Assembly: GCF_902833145.1 (NCBI RefSeq)
Contig: NZ_CADFEN010000003.1
Coordinates: 186,001 to 250,000, forward strand
Source: Burkholderia sp. BCC0506
GTDB lineage: Bacteria > Pseudomonadota > Gammaproteobacteria > Burkholderiales > Burkholderiaceae
Direction: 5' to 3'
Length of the DNA stretch: 64,000 nucleotides
Position 1 is the stretch's first letter; each line of letters begins with the position of its first letter. Under the pieces are notes generated by a model, which saw only the letters and a program-made list of their open reading frames with translations, ran no database searches and had not been told where the DNA came from. Position numbers and translations under genes: made by a program. Below, one piece after another: positions 2,747-28,039 of this stretch.

Positions 2747-3772
2747 CTAGTGCGCGGCTGCGGGGCCGGACGTGCTGCCCGCATCGAGCGACGCGGCGCG
2801 CAGCGCGTCCGCGCGATCCGGAAAGATGCGTTGTCGCAGTTGCGCGAGCTGTGCATCGTGCGCGTCCGGCGCCAGCAGCTGCGTGTCGAGCCGCTCGCGT
2901 TCGGCCGTGTAGTCGCGATAACGCGCCTGCCACGCATCGTCGCGCTGCTGCATCTGCACGACCCGCTCGGCGACGTCGGCACCGAGCTGCACACGCAGCA
3001 CATCGGGCGTCGCGCGCTGCGCGTCGAGTCGTGCGACCGCCGCGATCGCATCGCGCTGCCGCGCGAGCCGCTCGCGTGCGTCGCGCATGCCGGGCGGCAG
3101 CGACTGGTCGAGGGCGGCAAGACGTTCGCGCTTGCGTGCCTCGCCGAGCGACGGATCGCGCGCGATCCGGATCCGCTCGAGATCATCGCGCTGCTGCCGG
3201 AATTCGTCGCCGAAGAACGGCGCGCTCCAGTCGCCGAGCCAACGGCTCGCGAGCGACACGCGCTGCTCGAGCGCGAGCGCGATCGCATCCGGATCGAGGC
3301 CCGCACCGGACGGCGCGGCCCCGGGGCGCGCATCGAACGCCGCGACACACGCGCGATAGCGCGGCCACAGGTCGAGCGCGTCGCGCTGCGCCGCCGCGCC
3401 GATCGGCTGCGCGGCCAGGGCGCGCGCAACCAGTGCATCGAGCGCGGCCGGCGCCAGCTCGTGCTGCGCCAGCAGATAGTAGTCGAAGAATTCCCGCACC
3501 GCGTGCCGCTTCGCGAGATGCCCGTCCGACCCCACCGGCAGGCGCGGCGCGCTCGACCCCGCGAGCGCCGCCGGCAGCGCGACCTCGGACGCGGCACCCG
3601 CGGGTGGCCGCACCGTCGCCTCGCCGGGTACCGCGGCGTCCACGACGGGTGCAACGCCCGCGATAGCCGTCGGCACGTCCGGCGGGCCGAGCGCATGCCA
3701 TACCGCGGCCGCCGCGAGCGTACCGGTCGCGCCATAAAGCGCAGCACGCAACAGCATCGTCCCGCCCTTCAT
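2747..3772 (-). CDS. lifO: Lipase-specific foldase (steric chaperone)
   Basis: This 341-residue protein has an N-terminal membrane anchor near residues 5-25. An Ala/Pro-rich variable linker follows, then a helical lipase-binding domain. The family signature is visible as REFFDYYLLAQHEL. Lif foldases sit in the inner membrane facing the periplasm and fold the cognate class I.1/I.2 lipase before type II secretion. The gene lies 3 bp downstream of the lipase gene, the standard lipase-foldase order in Burkholderia and Pseudomonas. ATG 3772 gives MKGGTMLLRAAL; the internal Met at codon 6 is an alternative start. Length fits the family (about 340-350). Confidence 0.93.
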   Translation of the reverse strand: MKGGTMLLRAALYGATGTLAAAAVWHALGPPDVPTAIAGVAPVVDAAVPGEATVRPPAGAASEVALPAALAGSSAPRLPVGSDGHLAKRHAVREFFDYYLLAQHELAPAALDALVARALAAQPIGAAAQRDALDLWPRYRACVAAFDARPGAAPSGAGLDPDAIALALEQRVSLASRWLGDWSAPFFGDEFRQQRDDLERIRIARDPSLGEARKRERLAALDQSLPPGMRDARERLARQRDAIAAVARLDAQRATPDVLRVQLGADVAERVVQMQQRDDAWQARYRDYTAERERLDTQLLAPDAHDAQLAQLRQRIFPDRADALRAASLDAGSTSGPAAAH

Positions 3773-3775
3773 CGC

Positions 3776-4900
3776 TCACACGCCCTGCAGCTTCAGCCGG
3801 TTCGCATGCACGCGCAGTGCCGCGACCGGATCTTCCGCATACGCGCCGCGAATGCCGAGCAACTGGTTGATCGCGTCGAAGTGATTCCAGCGATAACGCG
3901 TCGAGATCACCGTGCCGAACAGCGAACTGCAGGTCGACGTGAAGCCGTCGTTCGAACCCGCGCCGGCCAGCGCCATGACGTTCCCGGCCGTCAAGAACAT
4001 GAGCGTCGACGGATCCAGCACGTTGGCCGGATCGATGACGGGAAGCACGCTGGTGTCGACGGCTCCCGTCACGATGCCCAGCAGCGACACGGGCTGGTAA
4101 GCGGCTCCGCTCCACGAATACAGCAGATGCACGTTGCCGCCGATCGTCTCGGCCGGGGCGCCGGTGCTGCACGCCCCGCTGCCGAGGCCGGGGCTTGGGA
4201 ACAACCGGTTGAACTGCGCGGCATACGTCGTACCGAGCGCGTTGAGCGCGGCAATCGCATCCTGGTTCGTATTGTGTCTGTCGCTGGTCAGGATCCCGAA
4301 CAGGTTCAGCAGCGCGCCGAACACCGGCGTCGACAGGCCCGTCGGGTCGAGCCTGAGCGCGCCGAGCACGAAATCGGCGAACTGCGAGCCGCGATGCGGC
4401 GTCGCGATCGTCGTGACCGATGCGACCAGCGCGGGCGCGACCGACGCCACGTAGCGCGACGTCAGCCCGCCCTGGCTGTGCCCGATCAGGTTGACCTTGG
4501 CCGCGCCCGTGACCGCGAGCACCTGCTTCACGTACGCGAGCAACTGCTCGCCGCGCCCGTTCGGGCCGAGATCGCTCTGGAAGCCGGACAGGTCGGCAAC
4601 ATAGACGGTCGCGCCATGCCGTTGCAGGTCGGCCTGCATGCCGTACCAGTACGGCACGACGCCTAAATAATCGTCGGTGCCGGTCAGGCCGTGCACGAGG
4701 ATGATCGGATAGCGGGTGGCCGCGTAGTCGTCGAGCGCGGCGCCGGCCGCCGTTTGTGCGCCGGCTGACGGTGCGGCAAGTGCGACGCATGCGAGCAGCG
4801 CGGTGCAGGACAAGAAACGCGTGAACGATCGCGCCACGCGTCGCACAAGATGTCGCGCGATCGCTGCGCGCCGGCCGATGAGGCTGTCGATGTCATGCAT
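3776..4900 (-). CDS. lipA: Secreted triacylglycerol lipase, family I.2
   Basis: This 374-residue precursor has an Arg-rich n-region and a signal peptide ending near PSAGAQT. The mature enzyme starts near DDYAATRYP and resembles the Burkholderia cepacia/glumae lipases. Visible elements are the oxyanion strand ILVHGL, the nucleophile elbow GHSQGG (catalytic Ser), the NDG loop carrying the catalytic Asp, and WNHFD with the catalytic His. Two cysteines (GSGACST and TSTCSS) match the conserved disulfide. It hydrolyses long-chain triglycerides after type II secretion. The first codons overlap the end of the DUF4345 gene by 8 bp, which ties the lipase to the upstream lipid-synthesis and transport genes. 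The family normally has a somewhat shorter pre-sequence, so a downstream start is possible. Confidence 0.95.
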
Positions 4901-5309
4901 GTGTGTGCTCCCAGGTTGCGCGAGCAGCCACGCGCCGTTGCCACGCGATGAACAACGGCGCGCCGACGACTTCGAGCGCCGTGAAGCCGACGAACGGCGG
5001 CCACGGCAACCCGAGCGACGCGAGTGAAATCAGCCGTCCGATGCCGCCGAGAAAGATCATCGCCCATAGCGTCGCGAACAATCGCCCCTGCCGCTCGATC
5101 CCCGGGATCACGGAAAACGCCGCGAGCCCGAGCCCGAACCAGACACCCGCGTAGAAGCGCAGGTTGCCGTCCAGCGTCGCGTCGGCGGGCAGCGCGATGC
5201 CGAGCGACGCATACAGCGGATCGTGGATGCCCATCATGCCGAGCACCCCGGTCACCGTCGGAACCAGCGCGAGCACGGCGGTCGCCGCCTGAAGCGCGCG
5301 TTTGCTCAT
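4893..5309 (-). CDS. DUF4345-family small membrane protein
   Basis: This 138-residue protein has four likely transmembrane segments: [46 protein letters not shown], and a last one at [18 protein letters not shown]. Start ATG 5309 (MSKRALQ) is preceded by AAGGAG at good spacing; an upstream in-frame Met lacks one. The family is of unknown function. It sits between the outer-membrane barrel gene (19 bp away) and lipA (8 bp overlap), so it belongs to this operon, but nothing in the sequence gives a reaction. Confidence 0.8.
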
Positions 5310-5328
5310 TCGAACTCTCCTTGCCTCG

Positions 5329-27635: not shown

Positions 27636-27702
27636 TTTCACCAACGTATCGCCAAATGTCGGAATCGGTTGCCGCCCCGCCGCGCGCCGCGGCCGGCCAA
27701 AG

Positions 27703-27741
27703 CGATCCGGTATACAAAGAAGACCCGTGCATACCGGATCG
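27703..27741 (-). promoter_or_regulatory. Perfect 11-bp hairpin between peptide and exporter genes
   Basis: CGATCCGGTAT (27703-27713) and ATACCGGATCG (27731-27741) are exact reverse complements with a 17-base loop. In the transcript the structure lies after the peptide stop codon and before the adaptor start. No U-run follows, so partial termination or mRNA stabilisation of the peptide segment is more likely than a full terminator. Confidence 0.6.
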
Positions 27742-27796
27742 TCGGTTCCATCATCGGGAAACGCGGCGGCTACCGCGTCGCCTCGAGTGCGGCAAC

Positions 27797-28039
27797 TCAG
27801 TAGATCGGGCCGCCGAACAGGCCGTCGAGCAGGTTCACGGCGGCGGTCGTGATCGTCTCGCCGATGTTGTATGCCTGCTTGACCGGTGCGGCGAAGATGC
27901 CGAACGTCAGTGCATTGCCGATGCTCTCCGCGGTGCTGCCGCCCCATTCGATGATGTTGCCCAGCGCGGACGGGATGCCCGGGCCGCTGTAGTAGCCACC
28001 GGCAACCTGGGCGATTTCCTGCTGATTCAGCTCTTGCAT
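27797..28039 (-). CDS. Double-glycine leader peptide, bacteriocin/microcin-like
   Basis: This 80-residue precursor starts at ATG 28039, with GGAGA upstream at 8 bases. The leader MQELNQQEIAQVAGG fits the class II/C39 consensus in every position: Leu-12, Glu-8, Ile-7, Val-4, Gly-2, Gly-1. Cleavage would release a 65-residue core starting YYSGPGIPSALG, rich in Gly, Ala, Ile and aromatics, with no Cys and with GxxxG-like spacing (GNALTFGIF, LFGGPIY). That pattern resembles small pore-forming class II bacteriocins. It lies directly upstream of HlyD, C39-ABC and TolC genes. No separate immunity gene is evident. A longer start at 28075 (MGYLAFSN) exists but would begin inside an inverted repeat and spoil the leader. 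Confidence 0.85.
   Translation of the reverse strand: MQELNQQEIAQVAGGYYSGPGIPSALGNIIEWGGSTAESIGNALTFGIFAAPVKQAYNIGETITTAAVNLLDGLFGGPIY

Follow-up and report, generated by a model that had tools for sequence, protein, structure and literature searches.

The export of peptide bacteriocins and the synthesis of polyketide lipids are normally studied apart. We analyzed a 64,000-nucleotide window of the genome of Burkholderia sp. BCC0506 (7.29 Mb in all, the window lying on the contig numbered C3) in which genes of both kinds stand in one run of 15, on the minus strand at 2747-28039, and may form a single system that makes a peptide and a lipid. Among described systems, the Pfa-type secondary lipid synthases (Shulse and Allen 2011, PMC3098273), as presented in the portions of that paper used here, are iterative type I enzymes that have in common with the window a ketosynthase (KS) paired with a chain-length factor (CLF), an acyltransferase (AT), a ketoreductase (KR), a dehydratase (DH) and an enoylreductase (ER), and a phosphopantetheinyl transferase (PPTase) occurs in the cluster of relatives of the window (an unlinked Burkholderia clade and Paraburkholderia ginsengisoli, both described below). 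The window differs in having one acyl carrier protein (ACP) motif in place of tandem ACPs (four to six in PfaA), a FabL-like ER instead of PfaD, a cytochrome P450 fused to a second KR, and tailoring by this P450 and a flavin monooxygenase (FMO). The synthase carries the KS-CLF pair with a DH (a PKS_DH_N match) by which the Pfa/polyunsaturated fatty acid (PUFA) type is recognized; it scores 319 bits against a cut-off of 1010 for the PfaA model TIGR02813, and no PfaD-like Pfam match was found among the fifteen genes. The word "Burkholderia" does not occur in PMC3098273.

Heterocyst glycolipid (hgl) synthesis with DevBCA export (PMC11804610, PMC8277102), in the sections of those papers considered, likewise combines a Pfa-like synthase with an exporter of the MacB/DevBCA family that lays lipid outside. 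The likeness extends to a Dev-like exporter beside the homologue of the synthase in Methylocapsa and to the PPTase of P. ginsengisoli, which matches HetI (both below cut-off), whereas the window has an FtsX-LolA-barrel set in place of DevBCA-TolC. Neither a thioester reductase nor a glycosyltransferase was matched by Pfam among the fifteen genes, so that the heterocyst combination of DevBCA and thioester reductase in one cluster is absent, and the permease matches LolC/E best. Chitinimines and megapolipeptins (PMC13291983, as far as the material used here extends) resemble the window in uniting a PUFA-like synthase with a peptide in Burkholderiales, but their peptide is made by a nonribosomal peptide synthetase and joined to the lipid, whereas the window has a ribosomal peptide with a double-glycine (GG) leader and no such synthetase. 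Type I secretion through peptidase-containing ABC transporters (PCATs) shares the leader, the C39 motifs, HlyD and TolC; the core peptide of the window differs in having no family match and in being tied to a synthase. Searches of the open full-text literature, judged mostly by titles and the starts of abstracts, gave no description of this gene set, in line with the statement of a first-pass annotation of this DNA that no described system with this set was known to it, and no such peptide appears in the portions used of a compilation of Burkholderia antimicrobials (PMC9958762).

The intergenic gaps of the run range from -19 to +131 bp, the lowest value being the overlap of the TolC and AT genes; the remaining gaps range from -8 to +131 bp. 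The first-pass annotation had reported about fourteen co-directional, overlapping genes with a 19-bp TolC/AT overlap; order, strand and overlap hold, and the count is 15. Its domain calls (C39 plus ABC, HlyD, OEP/TolC, AT, SDR-KS-KS-KR-DH, P450-KR, FMO-like, ABC, FtsX, LolA_like, DUF4345, lipase, Lif) were likewise recovered. All fifteen genes except those of the peptide and the barrel-like protein were assigned a Pfam family, with NCBIfam models and Protein Data Bank (PDB) sequences adding detail, often below the NCBIfam cut-offs. From the first gene to the last, followed by the gene just downstream, the features are:

27797..28039, minus strand, double-glycine leader peptide, 80 aa (MQELNQQEIAQVAGG / YYSGPGIPSALGN...), from its sequence motif
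26364..27665, minus strand, HlyD-type periplasmic adaptor, 433 aa (PF13437; TIGR01843 below cut-off)
24130..26352, minus strand, C39 peptidase-ABC transporter of PCAT type, 740 aa (PF03412, PF00664, PF00005; catalytic Cys/His/Asp motifs)
22699..24126, minus strand, TolC-family outer-membrane factor, 475 aa (PF02321; TIGR01844 just below cut-off)
21107..22717, minus strand, acyltransferase-ACP (AT-ACP), 536 aa (PF00698; GHSFG and ELGIDSVKQ motifs; overlaps TolC)
15002..21031, minus strand, iterative synthase (PKS), FabL-like ER-KS-CLF (KS without Cys)-KR-DH, 2009 aa (Pfam, NCBIfam, alignment)
10995..15005, minus strand, P450-KR-DH-like protein (DH motif lost), 1336 aa (PF00067, PF08659; Cys ligand motif; DH-like end read by eye)
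9580..10974, minus strand, flavin monooxygenase with an FxGxxxHxxxY fingerprint (PF00743)
8867..9583, minus strand, ABC ATPase, LolD/DevA/MacB-like (PF00005; TIGR02211 best, below cut-off)
7461..8870, minus strand, FtsX-type permease, LolC/E-like (PF02687; TIGR02212 best, below cut-off)
6630..7409, minus strand, LolA-like periplasmic lipid carrier (PF17131)
5329..6630, minus strand, presumed outer-membrane barrel, 433 aa (no family match)
4893..5309, minus strand, DUF4345 protein (PF14248)
3776..4900, minus strand, secreted triacylglycerol lipase, like solved Burkholderia-type lipases (GHSQGG and NDG/WNHFD motifs)
2747..3772, minus strand, lipase-specific foldase, Lif (PF03280 above cut-off; NF002333 below cut-off)
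1524..2345, minus strand, Crp-like gene, a possible regulator, just downstream of the operon (PF13545)

The AT-ACP gene was found in 16 of 65 Burkholderia genomes and 5 of 144 Paraburkholderia genomes, and the exporter block is linked to the synthase in 10 of these 21 loci. Nine of the 16 Burkholderia loci have peptide, HlyD, C39 exporter and TolC directly upstream in the same order, with TolC running into AT by match coordinates in all nine (in G038 the AT match is in two pieces). The order of the window's genes is thus kept in the eight other genomes with the exporter-linked form, and is not a matter of chance. In comparisons with five of these eight, the ratio of nonsynonymous to synonymous substitution (dN/dS) was 0.06-0.44 for ten of the fifteen genes; the foldase had the highest value of the ten in four comparisons (0.30-0.44 over the set), and in the fifth (G044) the barrel-like gene (0.35) exceeded it (0.30). 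The peptide gene, at 0.06-0.26 in five comparisons that all concern the commoner peptide type, is under purifying selection there.

All parts of C39/double-glycine export are present, a GG leader standing beside a C39-ABC protein with its Cys/His/Asp motifs, HlyD and TolC, and the C39 catalytic motifs are kept in all ten linked loci. The peptide is 91-98% identical to that of the window in the other five loci that carry the commoner type, and three of the nine linked Burkholderia loci have a shorter, divergent core. The part after the GG is 65 aa long in the window and 49-70 aa in four examples, hydrophobic and acidic (net charge -3 to -4); the acidity speaks against a simple cationic antimicrobial, and the core has no Pfam or NCBIfam match. 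A structure model of the peptide with two helices (mean pLDDT 55.6, low confidence) was not used.

Linkage recurs in a second genus in a different form. P. ginsengisoli (G160), alone among the five AT-ACP-positive Paraburkholderia genomes, carries the order peptide-AT-ACP-PKS-P450KR-FMO-ABC-FtsX-LolA-barrel-DUF4345-PPTase-lipase-Lif-HlyD-C39-TolC on the 214-kb plasmid NZ_CP066077.1 (complete sequence, FDAARGOS_1049), between IS6 and IS110 transposases and IS66, IS21, IS6 and IS3 genes; its HlyD gene spans the start of the plasmid record and is absent from the gene table but visible in the locus comparison. The presence of the whole set in another order in a second genus suggests that the parts work together. 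Chance juxtaposition was considered and rejected, the rough probability of a C39 exporter falling 1 kb or less from an end of the cluster being 0.001 in the window's own genome, where four exporters were counted, and 0.0003 in P. ginsengisoli, where one was. In trees of C39, HlyD and TolC, the nine linked Burkholderia and P. ginsengisoli formed one group in 0% of 200 bootstrap trees, and in the C39 tree P. ginsengisoli clusters with stand-alone exporters (97/97). The PKS tree places P. ginsengisoli with the three exporter-less Paraburkholderia loci that it contains (100/100), again with a single linked group in 0% of 200, and the FMO tree agrees more weakly (4% of 200). The best trees require at least two changes of linkage, and two gains or one gain followed by losses both fit.

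The peptide also follows the synthase across genomes. A model built from seven peptides matched 15 of 398 genomes of the family at E<=0.001, all of them among the 17 AT-ACP-positive genomes of a draw made by the same rule and equal in size, taken to be identical (Fisher 2e-25, uncorrected for kinship, with the linked Burkholderia clade supplying 8 of the 15). Thirteen matches are strong (E below 1e-15) and two (G017, G021) are weak (~1e-5) with a different core. A later peptide model matched one of 399 genomes of the order, the window's own. These searches scored at most 14 (family) or 13 (order) first-look candidates per genome.

Our preferred reading, to which we give an even chance, is that the locus is one transferable two-product system whose peptide and lipid act together. 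It rests on the identity and order of the genes, on their catalytic motifs, on the selection measured for ten of them, on the two linked arrangements and on the co-occurrence of peptide and synthase. Judging from their domains, AT-ACP and the ER-KS-CLF-KR-DH protein would iteratively make a reduced polyketide or fatty chain, with the P450-KR protein and the FMO as the enzymes that would oxidize it. The ABC-FtsX pair would then extract the product from the inner membrane, the LolA-like protein ferry it through the periplasm and the barrel-like protein receive it at the outer membrane, if each behaves as its family does, with DUF4345 and the foldase-dependent secreted lipase finishing or remodeling it. 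The C39-ABC protein is predicted from its motifs to cleave the leader after the GG and the peptide to leave via HlyD and TolC, so that peptide and lipid could act jointly at the surface or outside the cell. A two-product system could be a mixture that kills, a coat on the cell surface or a signal accompanied by its product. The first-pass annotation had proposed that the peptide and synthase blocks form one unit, naming homologous synthase clusters that consistently lack the peptide/C39 block as a finding that would speak against it. Clusters without the block exist; linkage in two genera and two orders, and confinement of the peptide family to synthase-positive genomes among those sampled, speak for the unit. 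Its further suggestion of a lipid joined to the peptide finds no support; no gene that could form such a bond was recognized.

Several observations weigh against joint action. No adjoining peptide/exporter block is present in 11 of the 21 synthase loci. Four of these, in Paraburkholderia genomes G340, G401, G449 and G461, have neither a C39 match (E<=1e-100) nor a peptide match (E<=0.01) in the genome, implying that the synthase core can do without both; lipase and foldase are retained in G340 and G401, a clear ABC-to-lipase set is missing from G461, and G449 is cut by a contig end. Close exporters in turn stand alone, both in the window's own genome, where an additional block has a C39 protein 81-83% identical and a different peptide (two further blocks are more distant), and in 8 synthase-negative Burkholderia genomes. 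The peptides of G017 and G021 are no more than distantly related, and given the limited number of candidates scored per genome an absent peptide match is not proof of absence. The transposase-rich plasmid of P. ginsengisoli could collect unrelated cargo, and the well-supported branches of the HlyD, TolC and FMO trees are on their own compatible with a single origin of linkage.

A rival idea is that of two independent weapons, a class II microcin-like bacteriocin beside an unrelated lipid or antibiotic cluster that shares its transcript or control while the products never meet, which we regard as somewhat unlikely. The exporter block is separable, some of the lone close exporters accompany other peptides, and the synthase core is complete without the block in G340, G401 and the seven unlinked Burkholderia genomes (of 16). 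The latter otherwise keep the run from AT to lipase, with a PPTase between DUF4345 and lipase (a partial match in G025), and showed no foldase match within the 36-38 kb fetched. Independent weapons would not, however, lead one to expect linkage in two different positions or a specific peptide family found only in synthase-positive genomes of the samples searched. All seven unlinked Burkholderia genomes (seven of all 11 unlinked) have a C39 exporter of 80-82% identity elsewhere in the genome, against 8 of 49 synthase-negative genomes with a close exporter (Fisher 3e-5, uncorrected for kinship), C39 exporters of such kind occurring in 24 of 65 Burkholderia genomes at E<=1e-250. Five of the seven hold a clear peptide homologue (G036, G039, G043, G053, G025), which in G053 precedes its own HlyD-C39-TolC block and in G025 stands before the beginning of an HlyD gene, where the contig ends. 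The GG-peptide pattern matched in one of seven stand-alone exporter loci from synthase-negative genomes, indicating that it misses other leader types. Separately, a wider Burkholderia GG-peptide family, with a leader resembling MQEL.QQEI and a core motif resembling YN.G..LT, is present as one or two copies before the stand-alone exporters of G017, G021, G036 and G043 (loci L159, L168, L160 and L164).

That the synthase-positive genomes keep the peptide in five of seven cases even where it is unlinked also agrees with a peptide that is a secreted signal reporting or inducing lipid production rather than a partner of the lipid, as do its high identity and low dN/dS in the commoner type and the Crp-like regulator that the linked clade retains beside the cluster. 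We consider such a signal improbable, because no receptor or two-component pair is found among the fifteen genes and the core is shorter and divergent in a third of the linked Burkholderia loci. Export through HlyD-C39-TolC of the polyketide itself or of a peptide-lipid conjugate, with the peptide as carrier or the product a lipopeptide, is very improbable, for although TolC runs into AT and the exporter accompanies the synthase in both arrangements, a second route (ABC, FtsX, LolA, barrel-like) is there with or without the exporter, the set has no ligase or condensation domain, and ten aligned peptides share no core Cys, Ser or Lys, so that only two Thr and the new N-terminus could serve for attachment.

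The synthase forms a distinct family, for which no product was found in the literature searched. Its first KS has an invariant Cys503 in 11 of 11 aligned homologues, and in its second KS the motif DAGHAS replaces the active Cys motif in all 11, an invariance that makes this domain CLF-like. The ER is a short-chain dehydrogenase/reductase (SDR) with Y155-x6-K162 invariant in the 11 aligned homologues and the FabL model NF005975 as best match (252 bits against a cut-off of 328). The ACP assignment comes from the single ELGIDSVKQ motif in AT-ACP, no Pfam ACP family being matched at E 1e-3 in AT-ACP, PKS or P450-KR, and the DH-like C-terminal stretch of the P450 protein, recognized by reading its sequence, is without the HxxxGxxxxP motif. 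Type I Baeyer-Villiger monooxygenases have the fingerprint FxGxxxHxxxW, ending in Trp. We considered this assignment for the FMO and found it unsupported, since the fingerprint ends in Tyr in all 14 loci with a match (16 loci examined).

A scan with the PKS alignment, in which each species was represented by a single genome, gave 69 loci, of which the neighborhoods of 45 (L061 to L105) were inspected. These belong to Burkholderia, Paraburkholderia, Methylocapsa, many actinobacteria and one Symbiobacteriaceae bin, with full-length PKS relatives outside Burkholderia and Paraburkholderia in Methylocapsa and actinobacteria. An AT-ACP match lies within the same locus in 42 of the 45 (covering merely 13-14% of AT-ACP in L099 and L102), the PKS of the other three being at a contig end; a partial P450-KR match outside the PKS was read from the match table in 42 and an FMO match in 23. 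In two Nocardia loci (L080, 24256-26331 and 7356-8597; L095) a secretory lipase lies upstream of the synthase and a lipoxygenase downstream. The idea that a lipase generally accompanies the synthase was dropped, since a secretory lipase (PF03583) stands upstream of AT in only 2 of 30 loci tested, these same two.

The ABC-FtsX-LolA-barrel route occurs in 19 of the 21 Burkholderia and Paraburkholderia loci, some with partial matches, G461 being without it and G449 cut; among the 45 inspected loci the LolA-like match is confined to these two genera. The route falls short of the LolCDE-LolA equivalogs (LolD 205.6 against 307.75, lolCE 58.2 against 362.45) and has a single permease gene. The product of 5329-6630, which the first-pass annotation had called an outer-membrane barrel, is a presumed barrel with no NCBIfam or PDB sequence match, and the longer frames that cover it have no Pfam match. 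In Methylocapsa, genes for a Dev-like permease, ATPase and adaptor come after those of the synthase, P450-KR, FMO and DUF4345. The permease has DevC as its sole family and the ATPase DevA as its best, both below cut-off, and the adaptor matches RND_mfp best, above cut-off, with DevB lower and below cut-off. In Methylocapsa aurea (L069, 22161-25178) these three genes stand where FtsX-LolA-barrel would be, and this replacement hints that the product must cross the envelope.

The lipase of the window has the features of a foldase-dependent enzyme (GHSQGG, Asp and His motifs and an adjoining Lif gene), and the unlinked Burkholderia clade keeps the lipase with no adjoining Lif gene. A tie between foldase and exporter was dropped, because G340 and G401 have the foldase without the exporter.

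The region just downstream of the run (1-2345) holds the Crp-like gene and a GGDEF-motif protein cut by the window edge, both kept in the eight other linked Burkholderia genomes. A homologue of the GGDEF protein (48%) follows the cluster in both unlinked genomes checked (G017, G039), and neither gene was found in G160 or G401. Upstream of AT in the unlinked clade (G017, G036, G039, G025) are divergent genes that we take to resemble hopanoid-associated HpnN and an MlaA-type lipoprotein, and near the cluster of G039 is a gene that is presumably a squalene-hopene cyclase, so named from its sequence. Elsewhere, the window holds a Type I Zorya-like anti-phage set on the minus strand at 45067-53259 (PADLOC ZorD 1482 bits, ZorC 935, ZorB 286, ZorA 846), where GC drops from ~0.67 to 0.56-0.61, and Type VI secretion parts at 55884-63402 (VgrG-like, DUF2169, a PAAR-like toxin-domain protein, an ankyrin protein and TssF).

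Beyond joint action of the two products, a more specific form of the two-product reading, which we hold doubtful and offer tentatively, is a mobile peptide-lipid secretion system in which one operon serves two export routes, the products come together extracellularly as a single material, active or structural, the lipase remodels the lipid, and the parts have been joined repeatedly with their pairing selected. If the two-product reading is true, the locus would be a natural case of a ribosomal peptide and a lipid dispatched side by side, in two genera and in two gene orders, and would point to an undescribed lipid class in Burkholderia and its soil relatives. Gene deletion in P. ginsengisoli, a soil bacterium whose plasmid locus is compact, would put the question to a direct test.

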